DNA of 58,290 nt from an uncultured Verrucomicrobiota bacterium (GTDB lineage Bacteria; Verrucomicrobiota; Verrucomicrobiia; Opitutales; Opitutaceae), in contig CAIRBK010000066.1 of NCBI GenBank assembly GCA_903876795.1, positions 1 to 58,290 on the forward strand, in the 5' to 3' direction. Below the pieces are notes generated by a model. It had not been told where the DNA came from. It saw only the letters and a program-made list of their open reading frames with translations, and did not search any database. A program made the translations under genes and the position numbers. Below are positions 23,107 to 58,290 of the stretch, in pieces. Position 1 is the stretch's first letter; every line of letters starts with the position of its first letter.

Positions 23107-23651
23107 GGCGTGGCTCCGCCGGGTCGGGCCGGGGCGGGGGCGTTGTTGACGGCGGATTGACGCAGGGCGCGCCGGCGCCTGACCTCCGCCGCGACCGATT
23201 CGAGACGGCGCTGCTCGTCGGGGTTCGCCGACGAGACCGTCGGGATCGCGCCGTTTGACGCGGGCGCGGGCACCGCCGAGGGTGCGGCCTGGCCCACGCG
23301 AGCGGAGGGGAGCGAGAGGGTGAGTTTCTGCCCTTGATATTCCACGGTCACCCATTCGTTGGCCGCATCGTAGGCGACCACGTTAAATTCGCCGCCGCGT
23401 TCTCCCTGCCGCACCCAGGCTCCGGTGTTGCGCGTGCGGTCGTAGATGCCGAAAAGCAGGCCTTCGCGCGTGGAGACAAACCCGCGAAATTCGAGCGCCG
23501 CGTTCTCCGCGACCACCGGCGCGGCGTTGACCGACTGGGCCGGCATGAAGGGGGAGTTGGCCGCGAGGCCGTCCAGCGGAACGGCGGCGGACGCGACCCC
23601 GGTCAGCAACGCGAGCCCGGCGGACAAAAACAACGACGAGGGGGGGAACAT
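23103..23651 (-). CDS. Secreted protein of unknown function, first gene of the ABC operon
   Basis: A 182-residue protein with a Sec signal peptide (SSLFLSAGLALLTGVASAAVP; cleavage likely after ASA near residue 22). A small beta-rich domain follows: LEFRGFVSTREGLLFGIYD, then GAWVRQGERGGEFNVV and VEYQGQKLTLSLPS. The C-terminal third is disordered and ends with a charged helix containing SVAAEVRRRRALR. The GTGA overlap with the ABC gene indicates coupled translation and suggests a periplasmic helper of the exporter. Similar domains occur beside secretion genes in other verrucomicrobia as far as I can recall, but I cannot verify this here. Confidence 0.75.
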   Translation of the reverse strand: MFPPSSLFLSAGLALLTGVASAAVPLDGLAANSPFMPAQSVNAAPVVAENAALEFRGFVSTREGLLFGIYDRTRNTGAWVRQGERGGEFNVVAYDAANEWVTVEYQGQKLTLSLPSARVGQAAPSAVPAPASNGAIPTVSSANPDEQRRLESVAAEVRRRRALRQSAVNNAPAPARPGGATP

Positions 23652-33060: not shown

Positions 33061-33156
33061 GAAGGACGTGGAACCGGGGAGTAAGGGGGAGATTCCCCCG
33101 GGTGCGAAGTCCTTTGTGAGGGGCGCGCGGTCCGCCGTGTCCGCAGGGGCGTGCGA

Positions 33157-33879
33157 TCAGCGGCCGGGGATCGACACGCTGGCGCGGAGGCCGGGCTTCA
33201 GGAGGGCGTCGTTGTTGTCGAGCAGGACTTTGACGCGCATGAGGCCGCTGGCGGCGTCCACGCGGGGATCGACGAAGTCGACTTTTCCGGGGAAGACGCG
33301 GGTGGCGTCGGCCACGGGGCAACGCACTTGGAGGGTGTCGCCCAGGCGGATGGCGCCGGCGTCTTCGGCGCGGATGTAGAACTGCACGTAGAGCCGGGAG
33401 ATGTCGACGAGGCGGAAGAGGGGTTGGGAGGAGGCCACGGTTTCGCCCGCTTCCTGGTGTTTCTCGACCACGATGCCGTCGAGCGGGGCCTTGATGGTGC
33501 GCTGGGCGAGGACCTCGGCGGCCTGCTCGTGCTGGAGGCGGGCGAGGTCGAGCTCGATCTTGGCCTTAAGCGCCTCGTCCTGGGAGATGATGCTGTCGGC
33601 GGAGAGGTTCTTGGAGCCCTTGTAGTCGAACTCGCGTTTTTCGAGCGCGGCCTTGGTGCGCAGGGTGTCGAGTTCCTCGATGCGGGAGTAGAGCTGGGCG
33701 AGGGTGTCGCCGGCTTTGACGCGGTCGCCCTCCTTCACGTTGATGTGTTCGATGCGGGCCTGGACGGGCGCGGAGACGACGACCTCCTTGAGCGGGAGCA
33801 CGAGGCCGGGGTATTCGGCGGCGGAGACCAGGGACGAGGCACCGGCGGTGAAAAGCAGGGCGAGGAGGGAAGGGCGCAT
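33157..33879 (-). CDS. HlyD-type periplasmic adaptor, short
   Basis: A 240-residue adaptor. A signal peptide or N-terminal anchor (SLLALLFTAGASSLVSAAE) is followed by the first lipoyl half (SAPVQARIEHINVKEGDRV), a short coiled-coil hairpin (about residues 60-125), the second lipoyl half (RTIKAPLDGIVVEKHQEAGE), and a beta-barrel domain with LYVQFYIRAEDAGAIRLGD. It lacks the long hairpin and C-terminal domain of RND adaptors. It starts 64 bases after the TolC-like gene and probably links that channel to the inner-membrane partners encoded across the divergent spacer; no RND pump gene is nearby. Confidence 0.88.
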   Translation of the reverse strand: MRPSLLALLFTAGASSLVSAAEYPGLVLPLKEVVVSAPVQARIEHINVKEGDRVKAGDTLAQLYSRIEELDTLRTKAALEKREFDYKGSKNLSADSIISQDEALKAKIELDLARLQHEQAAEVLAQRTIKAPLDGIVVEKHQEAGETVASSQPLFRLVDISRLYVQFYIRAEDAGAIRLGDTLQVRCPVADATRVFPGKVDFVDPRVDAASGLMRVKVLLDNNDALLKPGLRASVSIPGR

Positions 33880-33943
33880 GCGGGAGGTTTATTGTGACCA
33901 ATGGCCACTGGGGAAGGACGGGCGACCGGGAGGGGCGGGCGGG

Positions 33944-35557
33944 TTAGTCGGCGGTGGTGACGTCCACGCGGAGGTGTTCGGGCAGGGTGCCGACGACGAA
34001 GTGGTATTGGATGATGGCCTTGTTGAGATCCACCAGGGCGGCGAGTTCGCGGGAGCGGGCGGAGCTGAAGTCGCGCTGGGCTTGGGCGACGTTGTAGCTG
34101 GTGGTGAGGCCGGAGGCGAGGCGCTTGGTCTCGACATCGACGGCGTTGCGGGCGAGGCGGACGGTGTCGGCGACGAGGAGGTTGCGCTGCTGGGCGTTGG
34201 TGATCTCGCGCAGGGCGTTGTCGAAGGCGCTCAGCAAGGTGATTTCGGTGCGTTTGAGGCTGTAGAGGGCCTGGGTTTTGCGGCTGCGGGCCTCGGCGAG
34301 GCGGGCCTTGCCGGTGCGGTCGCCGATGGGGACGTTGACGACGACGCCGATGCTGGCGTTGGGCTGGCTGCGGTTGGAGTAGTCGCGGTAGGAGTCGAGG
34401 TAGCCGTTGTCCATGCCGATGTAGCCGACGGAGGCCTTGAGGTCCACGCGGGGGTAGCGCTGGTTTTTGGCGTAGGCGACGCGGATGTCCTCGCTTTTGG
34501 CGGTGGCGACGGCGGCGAGGTAGGCGGGGTTGCGTTCGAAAAGGGAGGCGAGGCCGCGGTCGCGGTCGGCGGCGTAGGGACGGGTGGCGACGATCGAGGG
34601 ATCGACGAGGAAGGCGGCGGAGGACTCGTCGAAGTTGTCGCGGGTGATTTCGCGCAGGGTGTTGCGGCGGCCGGCCAGGAAGTTTTGGGAGAGCAGCAGC
34701 TCCTCGCGGGCCTCGGAGAGACGGGCCTGGGACTGGGTGATGTCGATGGGGGCCATGCGCCCTTCGTCGAAGCGGCGCTGGTTGTCGCGCACAAGGGCTT
34801 CGGCGACGGACACGGCCTCTTGTTTGACGCGGATGTTTTCCTGGCCGAAGGCCATCTCGAGGGCGGCCACGGTGACGTCGCGCAGCACGCGTTGCACGGT
34901 GGTTTCGAGTTCGTGGCGCGCGATCTGGGTGGCGGCCTTTTGGAGGCGGACCTCGGCGAGGTTGGCCTTGAAGCCGAAGTCTTTGAGCAGGGGCTGGGTG
35001 ATCGTGAGGGTGGTGGTGCTGGTGTATTCCGGGGTGTAGCGCGGGTCCGGCGTCATTTGGATGCCGAAGACGTTGGTGCCGGGCCGGCGGATGGAGGTGT
35101 TGATCGTCTGGTCGGTGCCGGTGAGCAGCTCATACTGGGTGCCGGTGGGGAGCTTGCCGACCAGGCCGGTCTGCGTGCGGCGGATGTCTTCCTCGTAGAT
35201 GCTGGCGTAGCGGCCGCCGGCGACGGCCTCGGTCATGGAGCCGTTGGAGTAGTTCTGGGGGCGCTCGTTGGAGATGTAACTGTAGCCGGCCACCCAGGAA
35301 GGATCGAAGGCGCCCCAGGCGCCGCTCACGCGGAATTCGCCGATCTGGGGGTCGATGCGCTTGGCCCTGATCTCCAGGTTGGTGTTGAGCGCCGCGACCA
35401 GCAGGGCGTGAAGATCCAGGGTGGGATCGGCCTCGGTGGTGTTGGCCGGGGTCGCCGCGGGAGGCGTCGCCGGAGCGGAGTCTGGGGCGGTCTGGGCCGC
35501 GAGTGGCAGGCCGGCGCAGGCGACCACGGATAAGAGCACGAGACGGTGCAGGGACAT
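33944..35557 (-). CDS. TolC-family outer membrane efflux/secretion protein
   Basis: A 537-residue protein with a signal peptide (LHRLVLLSVVACAGLPLAAQ). The TolC fold is seen in two similar halves of long alpha-helices: HALLVAALNTNLEIRAKRID in the first, and TVRLARNAVDVETKRLASGLTTSYNVAQAQ with DLNKAIIQYHFVVGTLP near the end (only parts quoted). The trimer would form an outer membrane channel and periplasmic tunnel. The start at 35557 was preferred over one ten codons upstream because the signal peptide begins there. First gene of a minus-strand unit with the short HlyD adaptor. Confidence 0.9.
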   Translation of the reverse strand: MSLHRLVLLSVVACAGLPLAAQTAPDSAPATPPAATPANTTEADPTLDLHALLVAALNTNLEIRAKRIDPQIGEFRVSGAWGAFDPSWVAGYSYISNERPQNYSNGSMTEAVAGGRYASIYEEDIRRTQTGLVGKLPTGTQYELLTGTDQTINTSIRRPGTNVFGIQMTPDPRYTPEYTSTTTLTITQPLLKDFGFKANLAEVRLQKAATQIARHELETTVQRVLRDVTVAALEMAFGQENIRVKQEAVSVAEALVRDNQRRFDEGRMAPIDITQSQARLSEAREELLLSQNFLAGRRNTLREITRDNFDESSAAFLVDPSIVATRPYAADRDRGLASLFERNPAYLAAVATAKSEDIRVAYAKNQRYPRVDLKASVGYIGMDNGYLDSYRDYSNRSQPNASIGVVVNVPIGDRTGKARLAEARSRKTQALYSLKRTEITLLSAFDNALREITNAQQRNLLVADTVRLARNAVDVETKRLASGLTTSYNVAQAQRDFSSARSRELAALVDLNKAIIQYHFVVGTLPEHLRVDVTTAD

Positions 35558-35754
35558 GTGAGCGGCGGTACGAGATGTGGGCGGCAAAAGAGGGAGGACT
35601 AGCTGACGCAGCCGGGGCGAGCACTGGCAAATACAAAAAACGCGCGGAGCACGGGCTGAATCGCCTCGCCGGGATACCAGGATAAGTGTTGAGCAGAGGG
35701 GTGGTGAACGTCAGTTAAAGTTGCCCCACGTTTTCCCTCCTCCATCTGAACCGT
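35558..35754. promoter_or_regulatory. Divergent promoter region between the TolC/HlyD and GAF-HlyD units
   Basis: A 197-base spacer between two gene groups that probably form one machine. It must hold promoters in both directions, giving a simple way to co-regulate them. I see no strong -35/-10 pair or palindrome that I would defend; a weak TTGAGC lies near 35690 on the plus strand. Confidence 0.4.
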
Positions 35755-37611
35755 ATGCAAGACATGCTCCCGCCCGGCGTTTCTCTCGCCGAAGTCCTTG
35801 CCCGACTCGAGGCCTGCCGATTGTTCGCCGGCCCGCCCCGGGAGTTTTGGCCGTTGTTTGCCCGCACCTGCGGGCAGTTGGCCGAGGGAGCCGGCGCGCG
35901 GGTGCTGCTGCGGCCGGCCGGTTCGGCGGAGTGGCGGCTGGTGGCGGCATGGCCCGATGCGCGGACGTTTCCGGCCTCGACCGGCGGACCCGCTTTCGAG
36001 GCGCTGGCCGAGCAGGCGCGCAGGGAAGGCATCGCGGCCGCGCCGGGCGTGGCCGGACACGAGTTTAACGCCGGACTGGTCCTGCTGGCCCTCTCCAGCG
36101 GGGCGCGCGACGGCGAGGTGTGCCTGCTGGCGATGGCGATCCAGCCGGGCACGCGCGAGCGGCTGGCGTCGGCCGGGGCGGTGCTGCGGCTGACCGCCGA
36201 CACGCCCCTGCTCTACCAACGCCAGCGGCAACTGGAGCGCGCCAAGCGCGAGGTGGCCGACTATGCGGCGGCGCTTGAGGTGTTGGCGGCGACCAACGTC
36301 CACACGCGTTTCCTGAGCGTGGGCATGGCCTTGGTCAACGAACTGGCGGCGCGCCATCGGTGCGCGCGCGTGAGCCTGGGCTGGCGCGAAGGCGCAGTCA
36401 TCCGGGTCAAGGCCGTCAGCGGCACGGACAAGTTTGAGCGCAGGATGGAGGCGGTGCAGCGGCTGGAGTCGGCGATGGAGGAGGCGGCCGAGCAGGACGA
36501 GGAGCTGGCCTGGCCGGCCTGGCCGGAGACGGACGCGGTGTTGCGCGACCACGAAGTGTATGCGGCGCGCGAGCTCGTGCCGGCGTTGCTCTCGGTGCCG
36601 GTGCGGGTGGCCGGCGGGGTGCGCGGCGTCCTGACGCTGGAGCGCGGAGCCGAGGCCGGATCCTTTGGCGAGGCGGACGCGCTGGCGCTGCGGGTGGTGG
36701 CCGATCAGGTGGCGAGGCGGCTGGACGACCTTTACCGCAACGACCGCTGGTTTGGCGCGCGCTGGGCGGCCGACACGCGCGAGTGGCTGGCGGATTTTCT
36801 CGGGCCCAGGCAAACCTGGCTCAAGGCGGCCGCGCTGGCCGGAGTGTTTGTGGCGGGGTTCAGCCTGCTGGTGCCGCTGCCCTACCGGGTGAACGCGAAC
36901 TTCATCGTGCGGGCCGACGAGCTGCTGCACCTGCCAGCGCCCTACGAAGGCTACCTCGGCGCGGTGGCGGTGCGGCCGGGCGACCTGGTGCGCAAAGGCG
37001 ACCTGTTGCTCAAGCTGGACACCAGCGACCTGCTGGTGGAGCGGGCGGCGGCGGCGGCCGAGCGGCAGCGTTTTGCCAGCGAGGCCGAGAAGGCCGAGGC
37101 GGACAAAAAGCTGGCCGACCTGCGGGCCGCGCGCGCGGCCCTGGCGCAGGCGCAGGCGAGGCTCGATCTGGTGGACTACCGTCTCGGCCGGGCCGAGATG
37201 CGCGCGCCCTACGACGGCGTGGTGGTCGAGGGCGACCTGCGCGAGCGCATCGGCGCGCCGGTGAAAATCGGCGACGTGCTCATGAAGGTGTCCAAGCTGG
37301 AAGGACTCTATGTGGAGATGCGCGTGCCGGAGCGCGACGTGGACCTGATCGCGGGCAGCCGCGAGGCGGAGGTGGCCTTCACCACCCGGCCCGAAGACAC
37401 GTTTGGCGTCACCCTGGAGCGCATCGAACCGGCGGCCCAGGTGGAGCGCGAAGGCAGCGTTTTCGTGGTCACCGGAAAACTGGCCGGCGGGGCGGATTGG
37501 CTGCGGCCGGGCATGAGCGGCGTGGCCAAGGTGGAGAGCCGCAGCCGCACGCTGGCCTGGATCGCGACCCACCGCCTGGTCGATTTCCTGCGGCTGAAGC
37601 TCTGGTGGTGA
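35755..37611 (+). CDS. GAF domain-HlyD adaptor fusion
   Basis: A 618-residue inner-membrane protein. Residues about 1-330 are cytoplasmic; the second half of this part (about 175-325) looks like a GAF domain (LVNELAARHRCARVSLGW, then VPVRVAGGVRGVLTLERG). One membrane helix follows (about 355-375, AALAGVFVAGFSLLVPLPY). Residues 380-600 are a HlyD-type periplasmic arm: lipoyl half LPAPYEGYLGAVAVRPGDLV, a coiled-coil hairpin, second half MRAPYDGVVVEGDLRERIG, then beta-barrel. The fusion joins a ligand-sensing or scaffold domain to an export adaptor. First gene of a plus-strand run with the PqqD-M50 and SecA-like genes. Confidence 0.85.
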   Translation: MQDMLPPGVSLAEVLARLEACRLFAGPPREFWPLFARTCGQLAEGAGARVLLRPAGSAEWRLVAAWPDARTFPASTGGPAFEALAEQARREGIAAAPGVAGHEFNAGLVLLALSSGARDGEVCLLAMAIQPGTRERLASAGAVLRLTADTPLLYQRQRQLERAKREVADYAAALEVLAATNVHTRFLSVGMALVNELAARHRCARVSLGWREGAVIRVKAVSGTDKFERRMEAVQRLESAMEEAAEQDEELAWPAWPETDAVLRDHEVYAARELVPALLSVPVRVAGGVRGVLTLERGAEAGSFGEADALALRVVADQVARRLDDLYRNDRWFGARWAADTREWLADFLGPRQTWLKAAALAGVFVAGFSLLVPLPYRVNANFIVRADELLHLPAPYEGYLGAVAVRPGDLVRKGDLLLKLDTSDLLVERAAAAAERQRFASEAEKAEADKKLADLRAARAALAQAQARLDLVDYRLGRAEMRAPYDGVVVEGDLRERIGAPVKIGDVLMKVSKLEGLYVEMRVPERDVDLIAGSREAEVAFTTRPEDTFGVTLERIEPAAQVEREGSVFVVTGKLAGGADWLRPGMSGVAKVESRSRTLAWIATHRLVDFLRLKLWW

Positions 37612-37669
37612 GGGCGCGCCCGGCCTGTTTCCCGCCCCGACCCAACTCCGACCATCGGCTTTCCCCTTC

Positions 37670-39847
37670 ATGAGTGACGCCCAACGCGCGATTTTTTCCG
37701 AATCCTGGCACCGAGTCGCCGGGCAGCGTCTGAAGCTGCGGCCCTCCGTGGCCATCCGCCGGCAGACCTACCGCGGGGAACGCTGGCACGTGGCGCAGGA
37801 CGGGTTTACCAACGAGTTTTTCCGCTTCCGTTCCGAGGCCTACGACTTCATCGCCCGGCTGGACGGGACGCGCACGGTGGAGGAGATCTGGCTGGGCTGC
37901 GTGCAACGCACCCCGGAGACCGCGCCCGGCCAGGGCGAGGTGGTGGCGTTGCTGGCGCAGCTTTACAAGGCGAACCTGCTCATGAGCGACACGCCGGCGG
38001 ACACCGCGCGGCTGTTTGCCCGGCACGAAAAACGCCGCAGGCAGGAGCTGGCCGCGCAGCTTTTCGGGATTTTCTTCCTGCGTATCCGTTTGCTGGATCC
38101 GGATCGCTGGCTGAGCCGGACCTGGCCCTCGCTGGGCTGGCTGGCGACCAGGTCGGCGGTCGCCGCCTGGGGCGTGCTGCTGCTGGCGGGACTGGCCACG
38201 GTGGCCGGCCAGTGGGACCGGGCGATGGATCAGTCCCAGGCGGTGCTCGCGCCGGGCAATCTGCTGCTGCTCTACGCGGCCTTCGCCATGGCCAAGCTCA
38301 TCCACGAGTTCGGCCACGCCTTCGCGGTGAAGGCCTTCGGCGGCGAAGTTCACGCGATGGGCGTGACCTTGCTCGTGTTCACCCCGGTGCCCTATGTGGA
38401 CGCGACGGCGGCGTGGGCGTTTCCCGAGCGCTGGAAACGCGTCGTGGTGGGCGCCGCCGGCATGATCCCGGAGCTGGCCTACGCCTCGCTGGCGGCCTTC
38501 GTGTGGGCGTGGACCGCGCCCGGCACGCTGAACAGCCTGGCCTACAACACCATGGTGGTCGCCTCGGTCTCGACCCTGGTGTTCAACCTGAATCCGCTGC
38601 TGCGTTTCGACGGCTATTACATTCTGTCGGACTTGACGGGCACGCCGAACCTGCAGGCGCGCTCCTCCCGCCAGTGGCTGCACCTGTGGGAGCGGCACGC
38701 GCTGAAGGTCAACACGCTGGAGAGCCCGGCGCGCACGCCGGCGGAGGCGGCCGGGCTCACGGTGTTCGGCGTTTCAAGCTACGTGTATCGGATGGTGGTG
38801 ACGGTCTCGATCATCCTCTTTGTGGCGGACCGTTATTTCGGTCTCGGCCTGCTGGCGGCCGTTTTGACCATCGCGGGGGCGTTTGTCTTGCCGGCGGTGA
38901 AGGCCTTCAAATACCTGGGCAACGAGCCGCGCATCGAGCGCAGCCGCAAGCGGGCCTGGGCCCTGGCCGGCGGCGGCATGGCGGCGGTGCTGGCGTTTCT
39001 GGCCCTGGTGCCGATGCCGTATCATTTCCGGGCCCCCGGCGTGGTGCGCGCGGCCGGATCGGCGGATGTTTACGCGCCGGTGGCGGGCTGGGTGCGCGAG
39101 TTGAAGACCCCGAGCGACACCACCGTGGCCGGCGCGCGGGAGCTGGTGCGGCTGGAGAGTCCCGAACTCGGGCTGCAACTGGCGGCGGCGCGGGCCGAGC
39201 TGGCCCAGGTCGAGGCGCGCGAGCGGCAGATGCTGGCCTCGCTGGCGGCGGGCATCGAGCCGATGCGCCTGCGCCGGCAGGCGGCGGAGGCGGCGGTGGC
39301 CCGGCTGGAGGCTGACGAGGCGGCGCTGGCGGTGGGCGCGCCGGTGGCGGGCCGCTGGGTGGCGCTGCGCACCGAGGACTGGGCGGGCATGCATGTGGCG
39401 CGCGGCACGCGCCTGGGCGAGATCGTGGGGTCCGAGACCGAGTGGGAATTTTTCGCCGTGGTCGGGCAGGAGGATGCGAGCGCCTTGTTCGGCGCGGCCA
39501 AGGAGGGCGCGGAGGTGCGTTTCCCGGGTTCGTCGGGCCGCGATGCCGCGGTGACCGAGTGGCGCGTGGTGCCCGGTCGCCAGGAGCAGTTGCCCAGCCC
39601 GGCGCTCGGCTGGCAGGCGCAGGGGCCGGTGCGCACCCGCGAGGACGACTCGCGCGGGCTGCGTGCGGACCAGCCGTTTTTCCTCGTGGTCGGGCGCATC
39701 CCGGCGGCCGGCGTGGACGCGGGCGAGGGGCCCTTGCTCTGGCAGGGGCGCGTCGGCACGATGCGGTTCGCCCGCCCGTGGACGCCGCTTCTGTTGCAGT
39801 GGGCGCGGGATTTCCGCCAGCTCTTGCAGACGCGTTATCAAATCTAA
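37670..39847 (+). CDS. PqqD-like / M50 metalloprotease / HlyD fusion
   Basis: A 725-residue polytopic membrane protein. Residues about 20-105 resemble a PqqD-type peptide-binding domain (LRPSVAIRRQTYRGERWHV ... FDFIARLDGTRTVEEIW-like). The M50 core has HEFGH at 212-216 and the third zinc ligand in LLRFDGYYILSD (Asp314), within about eight membrane helices. From about residue 445 the C-terminus is a HlyD-like periplasmic arm (RAAGSADVYAPVAGWVRELK, coiled coil, ALAVGAPVAGRWV). It starts 58 bases after the GAF-HlyD gene. M50 proteins with adaptor arms occur beside peptide export genes; whether this one cleaves a substrate or only guides it is unknown. All zinc ligands are present. Confidence 0.86.
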   Translation: MSDAQRAIFSESWHRVAGQRLKLRPSVAIRRQTYRGERWHVAQDGFTNEFFRFRSEAYDFIARLDGTRTVEEIWLGCVQRTPETAPGQGEVVALLAQLYKANLLMSDTPADTARLFARHEKRRRQELAAQLFGIFFLRIRLLDPDRWLSRTWPSLGWLATRSAVAAWGVLLLAGLATVAGQWDRAMDQSQAVLAPGNLLLLYAAFAMAKLIHEFGHAFAVKAFGGEVHAMGVTLLVFTPVPYVDATAAWAFPERWKRVVVGAAGMIPELAYASLAAFVWAWTAPGTLNSLAYNTMVVASVSTLVFNLNPLLRFDGYYILSDLTGTPNLQARSSRQWLHLWERHALKVNTLESPARTPAEAAGLTVFGVSSYVYRMVVTVSIILFVADRYFGLGLLAAVLTIAGAFVLPAVKAFKYLGNEPRIERSRKRAWALAGGGMAAVLAFLALVPMPYHFRAPGVVRAAGSADVYAPVAGWVRELKTPSDTTVAGARELVRLESPELGLQLAAARAELAQVEARERQMLASLAAGIEPMRLRRQAAEAAVARLEADEAALAVGAPVAGRWVALRTEDWAGMHVARGTRLGEIVGSETEWEFFAVVGQEDASALFGAAKEGAEVRFPGSSGRDAAVTEWRVVPGRQEQLPSPALGWQAQGPVRTREDDSRGLRADQPFFLVVGRIPAAGVDAGEGPLLWQGRVGTMRFARPWTPLLLQWARDFRQLLQTRYQI

Positions 39848-39887
39848 GCCCTCGGCGCGTCCCCGCGAATCCCATCTCCTCACCACC

Positions 39888-41903: not shown

Positions 41904-41954
41904 ACCCGGGCCGGCGCGCCCGAGGCGAGGTTTGCCCAAACGGTTTTTTTTCCC

Positions 41955-46037: not shown

Positions 46038-46076
46038 TCCCAGGATGTGTTTCTGAAATAAATCGGGACGGCGTGA

Positions 46077-46130
46077 GCCGAGAAGCGGTCTCGGCCAAGG
46101 CGACCGAGACGGAGGCGACCCGCCGGGTCG
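46077..46130. other. Two tandem hairpins in the spacer before the giant gene
   Basis: Hairpin one has 7-bp arms GCCGAGA (46077-46083) and TCTCGGC (46089-46095) with a 5-base loop. Hairpin two has 6-bp arms CGACCC (46116-46121) and GGGTCG (46125-46130) with a 3-base loop. Neither has a T run. They lie in the 283-base spacer 46038-46320, which holds no supported gene, and may mark the 3' end of the upstream transcript or a dispersed structured repeat. Confidence 0.35.
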
Positions 46131-46320
46131 TGCCGTCGAGGGCAACGCCGGCCCAGCCCGCTTTTCCCCTCACTCGCAGAGTTCGACGGCCTGAGTTATC
46201 TCAGCAACACACCCTAGGCCAGTTACGGTTTAAAGAATCCGTAAAAATGGACTTCCCAATCATGGGTGCATTGGGCATGCATTTCCCTTCACCCGGCATT
46301 AGCTCCGAAACCCTGCACTT

Positions 46321-52300: not shown

Positions 52301-55300
52301 ATGGCGCCACCGCCTACACCACCGCCGCCATCGCCACCGGCGCGTCCGCCGCCACGGTTCAGACGGCCCTCACCACCGCGGTTGCCTCGCTCTCTGGCGC
52401 AACCGTAGCCGTCACCTCCTCCTCCGCAGGCGTTTATCGCGTCTATCTCGGCGGTGTGCTCGCCGCCACGACTTCCCCCCTGATCACCGCCACCCCCGCG
52501 CTCGGCACCACCGCGATCACCGTCACCGCCGCCACCACCGGCGTCAGCCTCACCGGCGGGACCCTTGCCCTCGTTCTTTATCCCCTCACCGACAAATACG
52601 CGTTCGCCGCTCGCGGCACCGCCACCGTCACCGGTCTGGCGGGCGTCAGCTTGTCCGGCACCGTGACCGTCATCACCGGCAATCTCGCCGCCGACACCAC
52701 CCTCGAAATCTCCACCCCCGGCGGCACCGTCGCCGCCGAGATTCCCGCCGGCCTCACCCAGGTTTACGGCGATCTCACCTTTGACATCGGCGGCTTTGCG
52801 GCGGGTTCGGGTAACTTCACGATCACCCATGCCTCGGACACCTTGGCCGTCTCCGCCGATAACGTCACCGCCTTCGTCGGCACTGCGTTCGGCACCCCCG
52901 GCGAGACCGGCTTCAAGGTCGCCGACGGTGCCATCGGTATGGAACTCGACCTCGAGTCCGGGCTTTACGCGTTCGCCGCCCGCGGCACCGGAACCTTGGT
53001 CGGCATCAGCGCTTTTAGCCTCACCGGCACCCTCGCGGTCCAGTCCTCCACCTTCACCACCTCCAAGTCCCTGACCGTCGATGGTGCAGTCCTTTCTCTC
53101 GCCGCCACCACCAGCCGGGTCACCGGCACGGGCCTCGCCTTCGACTTCGGCGGGTTCGTCGCCGGCTCGGGCAACTTCTCCGCCACCAAGACCGGCTCGC
53201 AGCTCGACCTCACTGCCACCGGCGTCACCGCTTTTGTGGGCAACGGCTACGGTACCCCCTCCCCAACCGGTCTCCGTATCACGTCCGCAGATTTGGGCCT
53301 GCGTGTTTTCCTCACCACCTCCCGGTACGCCCTCGCCGCTCGCGGCACCGGCGAACTCCTCGGCATCGATGGACTCACCCTCGCCGGTTCGCTCAACGTG
53401 CTAACCGGCACGTCCTTGACGGATCAGATCCTAACGGTCGCCGCTTCGCCCATCACCGTTGCCGCGGGCACAAGTTCCGTAACCGGCACCGGGGTCGCCC
53501 TCTCCGCGGGCACTTCGCTCCTCCTCGCGGGCAACTTCTCGTTCACCAAGTCCGCCACCGAGCTTACCCTCGCCGCCACCGGCGTCACCGCGTTTGCCGG
53601 ACAGTATTACAACAACGACGGCGGCACCGAGACCGGCGTCAAAGTCACCTCGGCTTCCCTCGGCCTCCGCGTCGATCTCACCACCGGTCGCTACGCGCTC
53701 GGCGCGCGCGGCACCGCCGCCTTCGCCGGCATCACCGATTTCGCCCTCGGGGGCAGCCTCACCGTCATCGCCTCCACCTACACCGAGGATGTCGGCTTCA
53801 CCGTCAATGTCGGCGGCTCGGACGTCACCCTCAACGCCGTCGCCAACTCCCTGGCCTTCACCGGCAACGTCACTCTCACCATCGCCGACTTTGTCGCCCT
53901 CTCCGGCAACCTCACCTTCTACAAGGACGACACCCAGCTCATTCTCGCCGCCACCTCCGTCACCGCCTTCGTCGGCGCGGGCTCCACCGGCCTCACCGTG
54001 AGCAACGGCCTCATCGCCCTTCTCTACGACTTCACCTCCGGCAAATACGCCCTTGGCGCATCCGGCACCGCCGCCCTGACCGGGGTAACCGGTCTCACCC
54101 TCACCGGCACGCTGGAGGTTGTGGTCAGCACTTTCGCGACCGATGTGGAACTCGAAGTTGGCGTCGGCGACGATGTTGTTGCCCTCACCGCCACCGCCGG
54201 CGTCACCACCGTGCGCGGCTCCGCCACCGTCAATCTGTCTGGGTTCGTCGCGATCAAGGGCACGTTTGCCATCACCAAGACCGCCTCCACCCTCGCCGTC
54301 ACCGCCACCTCGGTCACTTCGTTCCTCGGAACCGGCTTTGGCACCTCCGCCGCCGTCGGAGCCTCCCTCACCGGTGGTAATCTCGGCCTGCTCCTCTCCA
54401 CCGCCGGGCCCACCGCCGGTCGCTACGCCCTCGCGGCCTCCGGCACCGCCGCCCTCGTCGGCGTCTCCGGCCTCACCCTCACCGGCAATCTCGACGTCCG
54501 CCGCAGCACCTTTGCCACCTCGCAAAACGTCACGCTCAACACAGTTTCCACCGCCGTGGCCGCCGGCGCCCGCACCTTCTCCGGCACCGGGCTCGCACTC
54601 GCCGTAGCCGACCAAGTCTCTCTCTCCGGCAATCTCGCCTTCGACCTCTCCGCCTCCGAGGTCGTCGTCATCGGCTCTTCGCTCACCGCCAGTCTTGCCC
54701 TTGGCACCTTCTCTGCAGGCTTCACCGGCGGAACGCTCGCCCTTCTTGTCCGGGGCAACGGCACCTTCGCCGTCTCCGCCTCCGCCACCACCCTGAGTCT
54801 CAGCGGCGCGGGTTTCGCTTCCGCTGCCGCCACCAACGCCACCTTTGCCTACAACAACACCGGGCTCGACCTCGTCGCCGCCCCGCGCGTGCTCACCGTC
54901 GGTTCGGACAGTGCATCGCTCGCCCCTGCTCTCGGCACCACCGCCGCGCCTTACGTCGCACTCTCTGCCACCGGCGTCTCCGTGCAATTGGCCGGACTCG
55001 TCACCGCCACCGGCAATTTCACCTTTAGCCGCGCCACCACCTCCGACGGCGATGCCGTAGTCCGTGTCGCCGTTGCCAACTTTGGCGCCTCCCTGGGCGC
55101 CGGCTCCACCACTTTCCTCACCCTGAGCAACGGCACCGGCGCCCTTCTCGTTTCCACCTCGGGCGGCGTCACCTCCACCGCCGCCTCCCTCACCGTCAGC
55201 GCCGCCCTTGCCAACGTCCCCGGCGTCACCCTCGGCGTCTCCACCTTCACCCTGGAGTTCAACACCGGCACCGCCGCCGTCGGCGAATCGTTCACCGTCG

Positions 55301-58290
55301 GCGGCTCCACCGTCGCGCTCGACCTTCCCGGCGGCGTTTTCTTCCGCGTCATCGCCGACCCCATCGATCTCACCATCGCCGGCACCACCCTCAACGGCCG
55401 CATCGCCTTCGAGCAGACCACCGACACCCACGGCGACAGAACCACCGTCCTCTCCCTCGCCGACGTCAGCATCGCCGCCTTCAGCAACGGCCAGACCGCC
55501 GCCCCCATTTCGATCGTCAACGCCCGCGGCATCGCCGTCCTCACCTCCGCCGGTATCGGTGCCAGCCTCAGCTTCACCGCTTCCGCCGGCATCGCCGGCA
55601 TCTCCGCCAGCAGTGAAGTTGTCCTCGAAATCAACAACACCAGCGCCGCCGTCAACGTGGAAGGCCCCTTCGGTGCGCTCGCCCTCATCGCCGGCACCTA
55701 CCAGACGATCGTCCTCAATAACCTCTCCGTTGTCCTCCCCGGCGTCGAAATCTCCGGCGACTTCAGCTTCCGCACCGTCACCATCGGAGGTTCCTCCACC
55801 GAGATTATCGTCGGCAACAACGTCGCCGTCTTCATCGGCAACACCACCGGCGGCGCACGCATCGGTCTCGAACTTACCGACGGCCAGGCCGTCCTCATCC
55901 GGGTCGGCGGCGGCACCACCGAGGTCGGCTCCGTCACCGGTCGTGTCCGCCTTGTCGGTGTCCCGGGCTTCGATCTCGACGCCACCATGACCGTCCGCCT
56001 CAACGAGACCACCTCCACTTATTCGGAGTCCTTCACCCTCGACGGCCAGACCGTGACGATGAACTTCGCCGCCGGTGAGGTCGCCTCCGACGGCGTCGCC
56101 TTCGCTCAGGCCACCGCCACCGCCTTGGACCTTAACCTAAACGGCTTCGTTGTCCTGCGCGGCGACTTCACCTTCACCCGCACCGCCTCCGCCTTCACCG
56201 CCGCCGGCGCCAACATCACCGCCTTCGCCGGTTCCGGCTTCGGTGGCACCTCCGAGACCGGCATCAAGATCACCGCCGCCCGCTTCGCCCTCCTCATCCA
56301 GCTCAACGGTGCTGACGCCGGCAAATTCGTGGTCGGCGCCCAAGGCACCGCCGCCCTCGTCGGCGTGCCCAACTCCACCCTCGTCGCCACCCTCACGGTC
56401 ATCGTCAACCAGTTCTCCACCACCCAAAACCTGACCGCCGGTCTCGGCGGCAGCACCGTCGCCCTTGTCGCCGCCGCCGCCACCACCGCCATCACCGGCA
56501 ACGGCACCCTCAATCTCGCCGGCTCCGTAGTCGTCGCCGCCGACTTCATGTTCCGGAGCTCTCCCGCCATCGCCGACTGGATCGACGGCCTCGCCCAGGG
56601 CATCACCACCTCCGTCACCGAGGTCGTTCCCCCCGCCGCCGGCATCGACGAGGAACAACTCCTCACCTTCACCTCTGTCGCCCAAGCCTACGGCACCTTC
56701 ACCCTTTCCTACGCCGGCCAGACCACCGCCTCGATCGCCCTCGCGCTCAACGACACCACCGCGATGGCCGCCGCCATCCAGACCGCCCTGCGCAACCTCA
56801 GCACCATCGGCGCGGGCAACGTCACCGTCGCCTACGCCGGTTCCCCCGCCGCCGGCCAAAACAGTTTCCGCGTCCGCTTCACCGGCGCTCTCGCCGCCGC
56901 CAACGTCGACCCGCTCACCGTCGCTGTCGCCACCTCCGGCACCGTCGAATCCCAGGTCTGGCGCGTCTCCCTCGGAGCCTCGATCGGCACCTTCACCTTT
57001 CAGCTCGGCGGCTCAGGCCCCACCGCCGCCCTCACCCTCGCCGGTTCAGAAGCCGCCAGCACCGTCGCCGCCTCCCTTCTCACCGCCCTCGCCACGCTTT
57101 CGCCTCTCACCTCCGCCGCCCTCACCGTCACCTCGCTCGGCGGCGGCGACTTCCGGGTCGCCGTTGGCGGCGCGCTCGCCGGCACCGTCCTTGGCGCGCT
57201 CTCCGTCGCCACCTCGCTGCCTGCCCCGACTTCCTCCGTCACCGTCTCCACCTCCGGCAACAGCGGCGTAAACGAGATCGTTGTCATCACCCTCAACAAT
57301 CCATCCCTTGCCGCTACCGGCACCTACACCCTCTCTCTCGGCGGCCAAACCAGTGCCCCGATCCGCTTCGCCAACAATCAGGTCGAGACGAACCGCGACC
57401 GCATCCAAGCCGCCCTCGCCGCCTTCACGGGGATTGGCACCGGCAACGTCTCGGTGGTTTTCGACAGCAACCCCAATCCGATTACCGCCCAGCGTTACGT
57501 CGTCACTTTCCAAGGTGACCTCGCTGGCCAAAACGTTGGCGACATTACCGCCGACTTCTCGAATTTCCGCAGCGGTTCCGTCACCGTCTCCACCTCCACC
57601 CAGGGCTCCGGCGCCACCAACACCACCCAGACCGTCACCTTCGCCTCCGCCGTCGCCGCCACCTTCACCCTCGGCCTGACCCTCGGCGGGAACACCTTCA
57701 CGACCAGCGCTCTCTCGGCCACCTCCACAGCCGCCCAAGTCCAAACCGCGCTGAACGTCGCCCTCGGTTCCGCCGGCACCACCACCGTCAACTCCTCCGG
57801 CTCCGGCATCTGGACCCTCGCCTTTGGCGGCGCTCTCGCCGGCACCTCACCCCCGCTTGTCGTCGTCAACTCGACCGTCACCGCCCCCTCCGCTTCCGTC
57901 ACCGTGCTCAACACCGGCGGCGCCCAGACCCCTTCCGCCTCCGCCCTCACCGCCACCCTCACCACCGAACGCCAAGGCGGTTCCGCCGGTGGTTCCGTTC
58001 AAGAGGTTTCCTTTGCCTCCGACGCCGACGCCCCCGGCACCTTCACCCTTTCGCTGGTTTACAACAACCGCACCTACACCACCGCCTCGCTCGCCCTCAA
58101 CGCCTCCGCGAGCGATGTCGCCGCCGCCCTCACCGCAGCCTTTGGCACCCTCCCCGGAGCAACGGTGAGCGTAACTTCGGTTGAGGCGGGGCAATACCGG
58201 ATGGCGTTTGGAGGCAGTTTCGCCGGGGAGGCGCTGAACCTTGTCAAAGTCAGAGCGGAGCTGACGCCGCCGCCGGTCACGCTGGAGCAG
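46321..58290 (+). CDS. Giant LEPR-XLL surface protein with a lipase-like domain, 3' end outside the window
   Basis: An open frame of 3990 codons, without stop to the window edge. It must start at the TTG at 46321: an in-frame TAG lies at 46300-46302, and no other start precedes the motif FTLEALESRLLLSV (residues 15-28), a LEPR-XLL sequence with P changed to S. There is no Sec signal peptide. Order: motif; low-complexity region to about 160; autotransporter-passenger-like module (NRGTFAPGNSPGTTS ... about 170-290); alpha/beta hydrolase like LCAT/lipases (VFVPGFGGS 295-303, nucleophile elbow HSTGG with Ser426, GDGTV with Asp649, His688); cadherin-like unit (about 810-900); then two kinds of beta-rich repeats to the edge. 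Presumably exported and surface-bound. Confidence 0.88.
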   Translation, partial: MNQDAFQRPVSGSAFTLEALESRLLLSVSPLDDTLAAPGTVAPGTTVVVELADAGHASGVTTPAAQDSDSLFADMPEQAPTADAVGASAVEVAVADLAVPTVPTPTVNPAPSENAASLSALPAGSVPPRLIITANPPQGPPVKQIITPETQNSDLLTVEAQQRLNGVGVYDLALVNRGTFAPGNSPGTTSVTTFTNAADATLEIEIGGINAGTQYDRVEASGSATLGGTLKVFLYGDFTPTLGQTFTIITAGSAITTDFAEFSGLSLGNDLYLRPSISGGNYVLTVVAGPARPLVFVPGFGGSFPTADAFSEWLTTRGISPDKLTLEPIENTYASLIKTLENVGYVVGQNLFIANWDWRMAVAPKDGTNDGAVTLTGTNGGAVALTDSTFTTGIDYLGYAMKQAVETWATNHGGTAPIEVDMITHSTGGLVARAYIQSTAYNQTYTTSGTSFDLPEVKNLFQIGVPSQGVVQAYNFLADNFGLSSASRLAGLVANLAFDAVKSGSTITGPDGNITLASIQTSGQPDAAKFLRAYLPSLVDLTGTFDFLDTNSSNAVNYIDVNSSPTTSLLLDLNDGLGLDSATGIDANAFIDRITGELSIIYSSDLSSPSALQAYTGGAGPIVGMASSAGRLPGSTETWYQQQFASTGDGTVLAASAWGQFSAEADLERLAKLNQVQITGGTVASAGHSALTYNNTALTHILTQLGFSSFTSVLDTNEANGTADQAGALLNYVVGFFLADVRTLDDAYALFTTTLDAVDGFINALSTTDYSAGFDLPTAAFALPNFTLDKVLFLGSPVIALSSGSLANPRYQSGTLNAKVSFAASAASLFPGETVTYSLSNNATGRFAINSTTGIVSVANGAAILLGDASYTLTVLATYSGGSTQSKNLSITVSTNVSNLGTRTVQQNAANGTAVADAAALFPKNTFSSVSDGSDGDANALIGTYDFATGEFEFTLDRLLLTAGSAFSLSASSVTAALNPGSLSENAFSFNVTGGRFTLGAGIIAQGDFSFYQGNDLLVHATAANFSAFVGTGFGSVSPVGLSIDSGLFGLQLNPSTSQYALDVLGTVSTSGLDSLGLSLNGTFNLLVSNYDTAQTFTAGVGVSATSVTVAANSLSLRGSAILNLGSGSAYVSGLFDFSQDTSLITASADSVTAFFGNAYGTSAATGLSLSTGKLAYRLNPATLDYALGVEGTAAIVGFAGITASGTLRLLSSTFDSSQLLSSTLDSITYTFSAPADTLFVTGTVDLNLSGFAILRGAFTFGRTATTITAAGTGLTVFMGTGFGTGSATGLQITGGLFALRLDLGTGKFVAGASGSASLVGVPNVTFSATGFTFVANQFDSDQSLVVGVPGNTVSLTATALSYYMSGTASLALDGSVFVSADFTFASAPAVVDWVQGLIASDTSVVELVPASVGQSEEQLLTLTAADQAYGSFTLTYAGQTTVALALALNDPAAMAVAIQAALRNLANLGDTDVTVTYAGSPADNDHAFRIRFDGTLAGQNVSQITVSVVTSGILQSQVWDVALGAATGSFAFTLGAASTSLTLTGSENSTDVEAALKTALGTLSPLTPAALTVTSQGGGTYRVTVDGTLAGQAIGTLAVTTTLPAATTSVVRSAPGSLAQNEVVALYLNDPSGTAAGTYTLSYNGQTSGTLRFADNQVDKNRQRIEDALIAFAGIGSNDVTVIYDQSSTIRRQRYVITFKGALAGQNVSALTANDTLFRGGSVEIVNVTQGAAAASETQTVSLTSAVPATFTLSLTRSGTTYTTSALSTSADALAVQTALNTALGSAGTTTVTSGGSGIWIVAFGGALSGTSPPLLVITPTFTASNASVSIIAAGGSQSASASGFIASTSTPLSGNTAGGSIQEVTVTADVAGGTMTLSLAHGGSTYVTAAISTAATAADVQAALTTALAGLAGSTATVTSASTGVYRVAFGGTLAGVSVALLEVTATLPAPPAAQTEILVAATNVTALVGNGYQTVTVVASAADTFTLSFVYGATAYTTAAIATGASAATVQTALTTAVASLSGATVAVTSSSAGVYRVYLGGVLAATTSPLITATPALGTTAITVTAATTGVSLTGGTLALVLYPLTDKYAFAARGTATVTGLAGVSLSGTVTVITGNLAADTTLEISTPGGTVAAEIPAGLTQVYGDLTFDIGGFAAGSGNFTITHASDTLAVSADNVTAFVGTAFGTPGETGFKVADGAIGMELDLESGLYAFAARGTGTLVGISAFSLTGTLAVQSSTFTTSKSLTVDGAVLSLAATTSRVTGTGLAFDFGGFVAGSGNFSATKTGSQLDLTATGVTAFVGNGYGTPSPTGLRITSADLGLRVFLTTSRYALAARGTGELLGIDGLTLAGSLNVLTGTSLTDQILTVAASPITVAAGTSSVTGTGVALSAGTSLLLAGNFSFTKSATELTLAATGVTAFAGQYYNNDGGTETGVKVTSASLGLRVDLTTGRYALGARGTAAFAGITDFALGGSLTVIASTYTEDVGFTVNVGGSDVTLNAVANSLAFTGNVTLTIADFVALSGNLTFYKDDTQLILAATSVTAFVGAGSTGLTVSNGLIALLYDFTSGKYALGASGTAALTGVTGLTLTGTLEVVVSTFATDVELEVGVGDDVVALTATAGVTTVRGSATVNLSGFVAIKGTFAITKTASTLAVTATSVTSFLGTGFGTSAAVGASLTGGNLGLLLSTAGPTAGRYALAASGTAALVGVSGLTLTGNLDVRRSTFATSQNVTLNTVSTAVAAGARTFSGTGLALAVADQVSLSGNLAFDLSASEVVVIGSSLTASLALGTFSAGFTGGTLALLVRGNGTFAVSASATTLSLSGAGFASAAATNATFAYNNTGLDLVAAPRVLTVGSDSASLAPALGTTAAPYVALSATGVSVQLAGLVTATGNFTFSRATTSDGDAVVRVAVANFGASLGAGSTTFLTLSNGTGALLVSTSGGVTSTAASLTVSAALANVPGVTLGVSTFTLEFNTGTAAVGESFTVGGSTVALDLPGGVFFRVIADPIDLTIAGTTLNGRIAFEQTTDTHGDRTTVLSLADVSIAAFSNGQTAAPISIVNARGIAVLTSAGIGASLSFTASAGIAGISASSEVVLEINNTSAAVNVEGPFGALALIAGTYQTIVLNNLSVVLPGVEISGDFSFRTVTIGGSSTEIIVGNNVAVFIGNTTGGARIGLELTDGQAVLIRVGGGTTEVGSVTGRVRLVGVPGFDLDATMTVRLNETTSTYSESFTLDGQTVTMNFAAGEVASDGVAFAQATATALDLNLNGFVVLRGDFTFTRTASAFTAAGANITAFAGSGFGGTSETGIKITAARFALLIQLNGADAGKFVVGAQGTAALVGVPNSTLVATLTVIVNQFSTTQNLTAGLGGSTVALVAAAATTAITGNGTLNLAGSVVVAADFMFRSSPAIADWIDGLAQGITTSVTEVVPPAAGIDEEQLLTFTSVAQAYGTFTLSYAGQTTASIALALNDTTAMAAAIQTALRNLSTIGAGNVTVAYAGSPAAGQNSFRVRFTGALAAANVDPLTVAVATSGTVESQVWRVSLGASIGTFTFQLGGSGPTAALTLAGSEAASTVAASLLTALATLSPLTSAALTVTSLGGGDFRVAVGGALAGTVLGALSVATSLPAPTSSVTVSTSGNSGVNEIVVITLNNPSLAATGTYTLSLGGQTSAPIRFANNQVETNRDRIQAALAAFTGIGTGNVSVVFDSNPNPITAQRYVVTFQGDLAGQNVGDITADFSNFRSGSVTVSTSTQGSGATNTTQTVTFASAVAATFTLGLTLGGNTFTTSALSATSTAAQVQTALNVALGSAGTTTVNSSGSGIWTLAFGGALAGTSPPLVVVNSTVTAPSASVTVLNTGGAQTPSASALTATLTTERQGGSAGGSVQEVSFASDADAPGTFTLSLVYNNRTYTTASLALNASASDVAAALTAAFGTLPGATVSVTSVEAGQYRMAFGGSFAGEALNLVKVRAELTPPPVTLEQ
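49399..50500 (+). repeat. 120-125-residue repeat, first group inside the giant gene
   Basis: Three units are marked by a TAFVG-like core at 49399, 49777 and 50146 (spacing 378 and 369 bases). Each core is followed by a G-x-G-T-x-x-x-TGL step and a YALxxxGTA-like line. They encode a repeating beta-rich module of the giant LEPR-XLL protein. Confidence 0.75.
50040..52230 (+). repeat. Super-repeat, copy 1
   Basis: About 2.2 kb coding for a TAFVG-type unit, then a linker with SAPAVVDWVQGLIASD, then several units of the AVQAALxxL...AGQNV type. The same order recurs about 6.08 kb further on (codon-level offset 6072-6090 bases): for example GCC-GAC at 50461 corresponds to 56539, and CTC-ACC at 50581 to 56662. 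Protein identity is partial, so the duplication is old or the copies are selected only for structure. Confidence 0.75.
52867..54520 (+). repeat. 120-residue repeat, second group inside the giant gene
   Basis: Five units with cores at 52867, 53227, 53587, 53962 and 54316 give spacings of 360, 360, 375 and 354 bases. The consensus reads like VTAFVGxGxGTxxxTGL, then LGLxxxLTTxRYALAARGT and a LTLTGTLxVxxSTFxT line. The reading frame is kept across all units. Confidence 0.8.
56110..58290 (+). repeat. Super-repeat, copy 2 (runs to the window edge)
   Basis: Repeats the domain order of 50040-52230: a TAFAG unit with core at 56218, a linker with SSPAIADWIDGLAQG, then AIQTALRNL and AGQNV type units. 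The last visible unit (QEVSFASDADAPGTFTLSL, near 58000) corresponds to QEVTVTADVAGGTMTLSL near 51910. The gene probably continues with more such units beyond the edge. Confidence 0.75.

Follow-up and report, generated by a model that had tools for sequence, protein, structure and literature searches.

How might a diderm bacterium move a protein of several thousand residues across both of its membranes? The question is raised by the stretch of DNA analysed here (the window: positions 1–58290 of contig C66 in G000, a 3.57 Mb, 98% complete draft genome of an uncultured Verrucomicrobiota bacterium), in which a giant LEPR-XLL-like reading frame lies beside genes for a TolC-family channel, HlyD-type adaptors and a secondary SecA-like ATPase (33157–58290). 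On the best reading of our data, which we hold to be reasonably likely, a leader at the N-terminus of the giant is read and cut by one protein that joins a PqqD-like leader-recognition domain (RiPP recognition element, RRE; RiPPs being ribosomally synthesized and post-translationally modified peptides), an M50 protease and an HlyD adaptor, with export driven, in one subtype of the machine, by a SecA-like ATPase. The LEPR tag is probably an address label that the machine reads, and it may be cut by it. Among the genomes compared, the PqqD-M50-HlyD protein is the steadier partner of LEPR giants, and the SecA-like ATPase belongs to one subtype.

An earlier note on this DNA had described two genes diverging from a row of three, followed by a secreted NHL protein and a giant open reading frame (ORF), and all were found in place. 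On the minus strand lie a short HlyD/RND-type periplasmic adaptor of 240 amino acids (aa; 33157–33879; Pfam HlyD_D23 100.9 bits and NCBIfam RND_mfp 159.7 bits, both above cut-off) and a TolC-family outer-membrane channel (33944–35587; Pfam OEP 131 bits; NCBIfam type_I_sec_TolC 109.5 bits, under the cut-off of 225), the latter a 547 aa ORF from TTG with an in-frame ATG 10 codons downstream. On the plus strand follow a 618 aa protein of a GAF domain and an HlyD adaptor (35755–37611; HlyD_D23 59.3 and GAF 26.7 bits, both above cut-off), a 725 aa chain in which a PqqD-like (RRE) domain is joined to a membrane M50 protease and an HlyD adaptor (37670–39847), and a 671 aa secondary SecA-like ATPase that comprises NBD1, PPXD and NBD2 only. 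The SecA-like gene runs from its first ATG at 39888 to 41903; the start at 39663 in the ORF list is too early.

The giant, our candidate cargo, opens at TTG 46321 (46321–58290, +), the sole ATG, GTG or TTG to be found from the preceding stop up to the leader, with no clear ribosome-binding site seen ahead of it. Its N-terminal 3990 aa reach the window end without a stop, and the frame is no longer in the whole genome (3996 aa). The LExRxLLS motif near the N-terminus of the giant is present as FTLEALESRLLLS, residues 15–27 counted from the TTG (46363–46401, +), which is the candidate address tag. Here the curated LEPR-8K model (NF012209) scores 12.7–15.9 bits, under its cut-off of 17, and our profile A4, which was built with this sequence among others, gives E 1e-9. 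Across 45 N-termini, near-duplicates included, the leader follows the consensus F-x-[LIV]-E-x-L-E-x-R-[ILV]-[LM]-L-S-[AG], and the closest upstream ATG lies 1–71 residues off in 34 of them, the other 11 having none. A classical Sec signal is not visible in these 45 N-termini by a weak measure (maximum 15-residue Kyte-Doolittle mean 1.74, threshold 1.8), by which the N-terminus of the NHL protein reaches only 1.38.

Is the neighbourhood of these genes fortuitous? With the M50 protein as query, 80 of 288 Verrucomicrobiota genomes gave a match at E <= 0.001, in a top tier of ~270 bits and more, a second of ~130–210 bits and a weaker rest. The top tier supplied 20 related stretches from 18 genomes besides that of the window, in which we found the M50 gene in 20/20, GAF-HlyD in 19/20, the SecA-like gene in 18/20, short HlyD in 15/20 and TolC in 14/20; the genomes of the two stretches lacking the SecA-like gene (L055 and L056) carry it on another contig. 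Genome contigs were also scanned with the M50 alignment, and the best 80 of at least 587 loci (the named loci, fetched with at most 10 kb on each side) contain SecA-like genes in 74/80, GAF-HlyD in 73/80, short HlyD in 57/80 and TolC in 39/80. They span Verrucomicrobia, Thermodesulfovibrionia, Elusimicrobia, Desulfuromonas, Spirochaetales, Lentisphaerae and Magnetococcales, as well as Gamma- and Betaproteobacteria, Fibrobacter, Phycisphaerae and others. Tree distances of the M50, SecA-like and GAF-HlyD proteins agree (Spearman 0.83–0.88, 60 loci); the SecA label on the M50 tree (13 changes) was not used because contig-end loci had been counted as SecA-less. The proposal that GAF-HlyD, PqqD-M50-HlyD and SecA-like proteins form one set is thus borne out by a cassette conserved in many phyla, often with HlyD and TolC genes. 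In the distant M50-HlyD tier of Verrucomicrobiota (L058–L061, L063–L068 and L070–L077) there are often one or two HlyD genes, mostly with neither SecA-like nor LEPR genes nearby, and perhaps this tier is a sister exporter with other cargo.

Does the giant belong to the cassette? The SecA-like gene (profile A2, E <= 1e-140) occurs in 21 of the 288 Verrucomicrobiota genomes, in 17 genera. As A4 was built partly from cassette neighbours, which makes its co-occurrence counts partly circular, the curated NF012209 model was run. At E <= 0.05 it matched ORFs 1000 aa or longer in 19 of the 21 SecA-like-positive and 0 of the 267 negative genomes (Fisher p 9e-28, ignoring phylogeny), a length limit that was chosen after the data had been seen. 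Top matches in the 19 genomes score 19–33 bits; the model misses two positives, the window genome (15.9 bits) and G086. With A4 itself, all 16 genomes matched at E < 1e-5 are SecA-like positive. In genera g5, g7 and g18, in which genomes both with and without the SecA-like gene were seen, the LEPR giant varies together with it. In 13 of the 15 genomes, the window's included, with both on one contig, the giant ORF lies no more than 5.5 kb from the M50-SecA span. G186:C1 and G091:C1 hold two cassettes per genome, each with a LEPR giant within ~5 kb, save for the first G186 cassette at ~30 kb. The gene surveys of related stretches, named loci and SecA-less loci used stop-to-stop ORFs, with a motif pattern revised once it had failed on the known leader. 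A strict N-terminal motif occurs in 8 of the 20 cassette stretches (0.015 ORFs expected by shuffling) vs 1 of 18 distant M50 stretches; these controls exclude L062 and L069, in which a SecA-like gene is present, and include L077, where a 1009 aa frame encodes a SecA, and L076, from a genome (G217) with a SecA-like gene and LEPR giant on another contig.

The association extends beyond this phylum. A whole-genome A4 search of 50 cassette genomes of many phyla found a LEPR match at E <= 0.01 in 44, and in 40 the matched ORF is 1000 aa or longer; these genomes correspond to 50 of the 80 named loci, all are cassette-positive and 8 had supplied sequences to A4. Two named loci, L078 and L080, apparently lie in the same genomes as G140 and G126. 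Annotated plasmids tell a similar story: of 77 matching records nine were examined, and eight of the nine stretches have a SecA-like gene by our own profile. The order on the plasmid of Pontibrevibacter nitratireducens is a LEPR-XLL protein of ~10,600 aa, DUF3467, an adaptor, a 'PqqD family peptide modification chaperone', a 'DEAD/DEAH box helicase' and an adaptor. Giants also occupy this position in Pseudosulfitobacter, Methylosinus and Mesorhizobium, with LEPR-like N-termini unnamed in the annotation; the Alisedimentitalea giant has no motif at its annotated start. A small DUF3467 gene directly precedes the cassette adaptor gene, after the giant where that is annotated, in six of the nine stretches (L225, L226, L229, L231, L232 and L234; alphaproteobacterial), and in some stretches ABC transporter genes annotated as sugar or peptide transporters stand some kb past the cassette. 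Overall, the link between LEPR-XLL proteins and the gene set, a prediction of the earlier note, holds by genome co-occurrence and by adjacency across phyla.

Which gene does the leader need? A second order, that of G304 (Pseudomaricurvus alkylphenolicus, presumably a gammaproteobacterium; 185 genomes), separates the candidates. SecA-like proteins were called at >= 675 bits in a frame of <= 720 aa, M50-HlyD proteins at E <= 1e-30 and LEPR giants at E <= 0.05 in a frame of >= 1000 aa; many of the searched genomes are drafts, and the SecA-like and M50-HlyD gene counts, like the SecA-like count in Verrucomicrobiota, rest on a few first-look candidates per genome. SecA-like genes occur in 11/185 genomes, and LEPR giants in 11/11 of these and 15/174 of the negatives; G402, with an intermediate SecA match (619 bits, 913 aa frame) and no LEPR, was counted as not SecA-like and would otherwise make the former 11/12. 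M50-HlyD occurs in 43/185, namely in 25 of the 26 LEPR-giant genomes vs 18 of the 159 others, and the single LEPR giant among the 142 genomes without M50-HlyD is a 1014 aa frame in G483. Among the 26, G349 is under the family cut-off, which G380 and G355 attain only when neighbours in frame are added, the G380 match (16.8 bits, 18.1 with neighbours) adjoining its SecA-like gene. A LEPR giant is present in 16 of the 19 genomes whose M50 proteins are closest (>= 450 bits). Because M50-HlyD is present in 25 of the 26 LEPR genomes and 15 of the 26 have no SecA-like gene, it is PqqD-M50-HlyD that accompanies the leader more steadily, the SecA-like ATPase being optional.

Individual loci agree with these counts. 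At L189, L191, L192 and L197 the giant directly adjoins HlyD, M50-HlyD and GAF-HlyD genes in whole genomes without a SecA-like gene; at L190 the same genes stand beside a frame cut at the stretch end, inside which the LEPR match of that genome falls; and L198 is a more distant version. A Thalassospira marina plasmid carries LEPR-XLL, DUF3467, HlyD, M50, adaptor and TolC genes, the SecA-like gene being absent from the plasmid. LEPR giants thus stand beside SecA-less cassettes, and the SecA-like motor is therefore not required everywhere; a strict dependence of LEPR proteins on it is rejected by these loci together with the second-order counts. The expectation that LEPR proteins would be absent where the genes are missing accordingly holds for the SecA-like gene in Verrucomicrobiota (none of 1000 aa or more); in the second order it is almost fulfilled for M50-HlyD and fails for the SecA-like gene.

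Could the cassette simply be part of ordinary type I secretion, with the TolC and short HlyD proteins serving an ABC exporter encoded elsewhere and the SecA-like gene an unrelated neighbour? The window does encode a 713 aa ABC exporter (ABC_membrane and ABC_tran; 21214–23355, −), ~10 kb from the short HlyD gene. Set against this are the recurrence of the SecA-like gene in both sets of cassette stretches, the N-terminal leader borne by the giants, and the lack of an ABC domain in the window cassette proteins or in four scanned neighbours of SecA-less loci (the other cassettes having been searched with five profiles, none for ABC), and we regard a type I arrangement as very improbable. The four neighbours comprise one hybrid histidine kinase, one GGDEF protein, a further HlyD protein and one protein whose Ig-like matches are weak; an ABC exporter as the motor of SecA-less loci was not found among them.

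The protein that the leader tracks most closely has features expected of a leader-reading protease. In the M50-HlyD family the catalytic residues H212, E213 and H216 (HExxH) and the distal Asp D314 are invariant in 21/21 sequences, and at E <= 0.1 M50 models match 21/21 and PqqD 10/21. For the window protein alone, Pfam gives M50 23.1, HlyD 18.7 and PqqD 14.3 bits, each under its cut-off, and the top NCBIfam match is daptide_HExxH, a daptide intramembrane metalloprotease (169.8 bits, residues 22–408; under the cut-off of 300). An AlphaFold model of the whole protein (pLDDT 82) has a C-terminal third that corresponds to a MexA-type adaptor (Z 14.5; VIA matches span residues 448–716), and the 50 Foldseek matches listed for the whole model are all adaptors. 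Residues 9–112 (37694–38005, +), folded alone with pLDDT 90, take up the winged-helix order of three strands and three helices, as in the RRE fold. Many of the 50 PDB matches that VIA listed for them are RiPP leader-recognition proteins, such as a leader-containing lasso-peptide B1 structure (Z 8.9), TruD (8.1), PqqD (8.0) and the PbtF RRE (7.6), and their first Foldseek match is a lasso-peptide B1 protein with its leader (E 0.017). The PqqD-like domain noticed earlier in the sequence is accordingly modelled with a leader-recognition fold, at modest scores; it would bind the leader, and cleavage would take place at the M50 site.

Several observations weigh against a leader read by this protein and exported by this machine. 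For the domain itself, PqqD stays under the Pfam cut-off in the window protein, the top VIA Z scores of residues 9–112 belong to the carbamoyltransferases GdmN/NovN (9.6–10.5) and a methyltransferase (9.5), above the RRE proteins, and Foldseek gave no match for these residues at E <= 0.001. TolC and short HlyD are not constant in the locus. In Verrucomicrobiota, LEPR-8K matches below 1000 aa occur in nine SecA-negative genomes, three of them at 833–848 aa in one genus, so that an 800 aa limit would add three SecA-negative genomes, and A4 gives weak matches (E 3e-4 to 0.04, frames of 109–721 aa) in seven. The nearest giant is 148 kb from the cassette in G018 and ~14 kb in G126, in five more genomes cassette and giant are found only on separate contigs, and the N-terminal motif falls within the fetched stretch of only 12 of the 80 named loci. 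To these must be added the SecA-less LEPR genomes, loci and plasmid described above, the 3 of 19 genomes with closest M50 proteins and no giant, and the 18 of 43 genomes of the second order with M50-HlyD and no LEPR giant.

The last of these counts, together with the presence of the cassette on plasmids and its patchiness within one genus, would also be expected if giants and cassette were accessory genes transferred jointly or typical of one shared way of life, the cassette exporting something else. Such an indirect association sits poorly with the direct adjacency of giants in several phyla, whether upstream, downstream or divergent, with the Verrucomicrobiota genomes that keep the cassette when their giant is distant or on another contig, and with a short N-terminal leader whose nearly invariant residues are kept on many giants. 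We consider it improbable, and a leader read by the RRE-M50-adaptor protein the better explanation.

What, then, would move the chain? SecA_DEAD, SecA_PP_bind and P-loop_SecA are present in 21/21 members of the SecA-like family, whose GEGKT and D-E-x-D residues are invariant, and SecA_SW is absent from the families matched at E <= 0.01 in these 21. The alignment of the SecA-like protein to solved SecA stops at chain residue 600 of 841 in 3iqy, which we take to be Bacillus subtilis SecA; the protein should therefore lack the wing, the two-helix finger and the greater part of the scaffold, judging by this alignment and by the positions and names that we assume for these regions in the SecA chain. 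Further SecA matches in the window genome, on contigs C46 and C50, are probably the housekeeping SecA split across contig ends. A SecY search in 13 genomes (nine SecA-like positive and four negative, the window genome included) found one SecY each; the inner-membrane path would therefore come from that SecY or from the membrane part of the M50 protein.

The single SecY, which leaves no separate pore from a second SecY, and the LEPR giants with SecA-less cassettes, in which the dedicated motor is missing, could also be read as signs that housekeeping Sec or some different route takes the giant over the inner membrane, with PqqD-M50-HlyD acting as a protease for its maturation or retention and the SecA-like protein having some other task. 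This we think unlikely. The 45 LEPR N-termini show no hydrophobic stretch above threshold (by the weak measure given above), the Verrucomicrobiota LEPR giants of at least 1000 aa are found only with the SecA-like gene and in 19 of its 21 genomes, and the M50 and the GAF protein each include a fused HlyD part.

Our favoured mechanism would run as follows. The giant would be made with an N-terminal LEPR-XLL leader in place of a Sec signal, and at the inner membrane the M50-HlyD protein, itself membrane-embedded, would bind the leader through its PqqD-like (RRE) domain and probably cut it at the M50 site, as RRE-dependent intramembrane proteases do with small peptides. The HlyD parts of M50-HlyD, GAF-HlyD and short HlyD would form a periplasmic conduit to TolC. 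In the subtype of the window, the SecA-like ATPase, lacking the wing/scaffold region, would push the unfolded chain, through the single SecY or the membrane part of the M50 protein; the second subtype, without a SecA-like gene, would use another energy source, perhaps the housekeeping SecA. Export of the giant, the identity of the inner-membrane pore and the motor role of the SecA-like protein are what we infer from gene content and models. Whether, more broadly, LEPR-XLL serves as the N-terminal address for a diderm secretion pathway of its own, with RiPP logic (leader, RRE reader and M50 cutter) for proteins of 1,000 to ~20,000 residues, built on an RRE-M50-adaptor core with the SecA-like ATPase as one of at least two interchangeable drives, is in our judgement an evenly balanced question.

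The presumed cargo reaches considerable sizes. The largest stop-to-stop LEPR frames approach or exceed 20,000 aa (G015 20,466; G018 19,216; G091 18,984). In six genomes giants stand in tandem on the same strand, a frame of ~14,000–20,500 aa being followed within ~100 bases by one of ~4,600–6,600 aa (G140:C1:3645000-3701313, G091:C1:3960277-4037000, G186:C1:428000-496150, G157:C29, G015:C142 and G018:C1:4260035-4320198); in G140, G091, G186 and G015 a gene of ~420–830 aa, probably secreted, comes after the pair. No shared C-terminal motif was seen by eye in the C-termini compared among relatives' giants, the window giant being open-ended. Residues 330–442 of the window giant (47308–47646, +) have sub-cut-off similarity to LCAT/PGAP1-like alpha/beta-hydrolases with an HSTGG stretch nearby, a weak sequence hint that the cargo might carry a lipase-like domain, and a RibLong match is likewise sub-cut-off. 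LEPR-XLL has also been noted, in the available text of one study, on a ~8000 aa Vibrio protein with RTX domains (PMC10868602).

Other features of the window bear less on export. Between the SecA-like gene and the giant lies the NHL/beta-propeller protein with Ig-like and MBG domains (41955–46037, +; Pfam NHL 199 bits), which the earlier note had placed within the gene set; a homologue stands beside the cassette in 1 of the 20 related stretches, on which ground it was rejected as a component, and it is probably outside the machine. A 687 aa protein (30997–33060, −) fuses queuine tRNA-ribosyltransferase (TGT, 467 bits) with Methyltransf_30 (48 bits). Neither Rfam at gathering scores nor a tRNA scan matched anything in the window, and promoter and terminator signals in 33000–46500 were no commoner than in shuffles.

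If the LEPR leader is indeed an address, leader-peptide recognition, known from small peptides, would extend to bulk protein secretion, and the cassette could answer how proteins with frames of up to ~20,000 residues are exported across two membranes in the PVC (Planctomycetes-Verrucomicrobia-Chlamydiae) group and Proteobacteria. The SecA-less version would tell whether the role of SecA here is essential. Parts of such a system are familiar. The LEPR-XLL domain model NF012209 describes the same N-terminal motif and finds the giants of related genomes, but the window copy falls under its cut-off, and the model covers the domain alone and names no exporter. Like Gram-positive accessory Sec (SecA2/SecY2), whose cargo consists of large surface proteins, the cassette places a second SecA beside the housekeeping one; unlike it, the wing/scaffold is absent, the 13 genomes hold no second SecY, and adaptor and TolC genes adjoin. 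With type I secretion (HlyB/HlyD/TolC) it shares a TolC-family channel and HlyD-type adaptors, whereas the window cassette has no ABC ATPase among the main ORFs of 33157–58290, its adaptors are fused to GAF or PqqD-M50, and the leader is N-terminal. The order of a PqqD-like domain followed by an M50 core is that of the RRE-dependent RiPP intramembrane peptidases (daptide MpaP and the epipeptide M50 protease EpeP, the latter thought to cleave and export according to the available text of PMC10885120), but in the cassette the protease forms one chain with an HlyD adaptor, and its presumed substrates have thousands of residues.

The closest precedent is the locus described by Kamneva, Poudel and Ward (2015; PMC4452313), Verrucomicrobia included, in which, according to the text available, a SecA_DEAD protein without all or most of SecA_SW accompanies M50-HlyD, GAF-HlyD, HlyD and sometimes OEP proteins, SecA being proposed as the ATPase that replaces the ABC transporter and the M50 protein as the pore. 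The same paper records the locus in Methylobacterium extorquens AM1, where expression of the M50, SecA and HlyD genes in exponential phase was low or absent. The window falls within that description, with a second SecA_DEAD protein without SecA_SW and adjoining M50-, GAF- and HlyD-domain proteins. As that text already contains the gene set, we rejected its status as an undescribed system, which the earlier note had supposed; the note's idea of a SecA-like motor in place of the ABC ATPase was likewise published in that text in 2015, and by the SecA-less loci such a motor is not a fixed part. The main text of PMC4452313 differs in lacking the words 'LEPR', 'PqqD' and 'giant', and the text available of it names neither a cargo nor a SecA-less version. 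No literature linking LEPR proteins to a SecA-like or M50-HlyD locus was found by a search that covered neither bioRxiv nor most subscription journals. In the text available of the 2015 paper the locus has neither cargo nor known role, and the cargo tag makes it directly testable: the locus is known, and the cargo tag, its reading by an RRE and the SecA-less subtype are the additions of this work.

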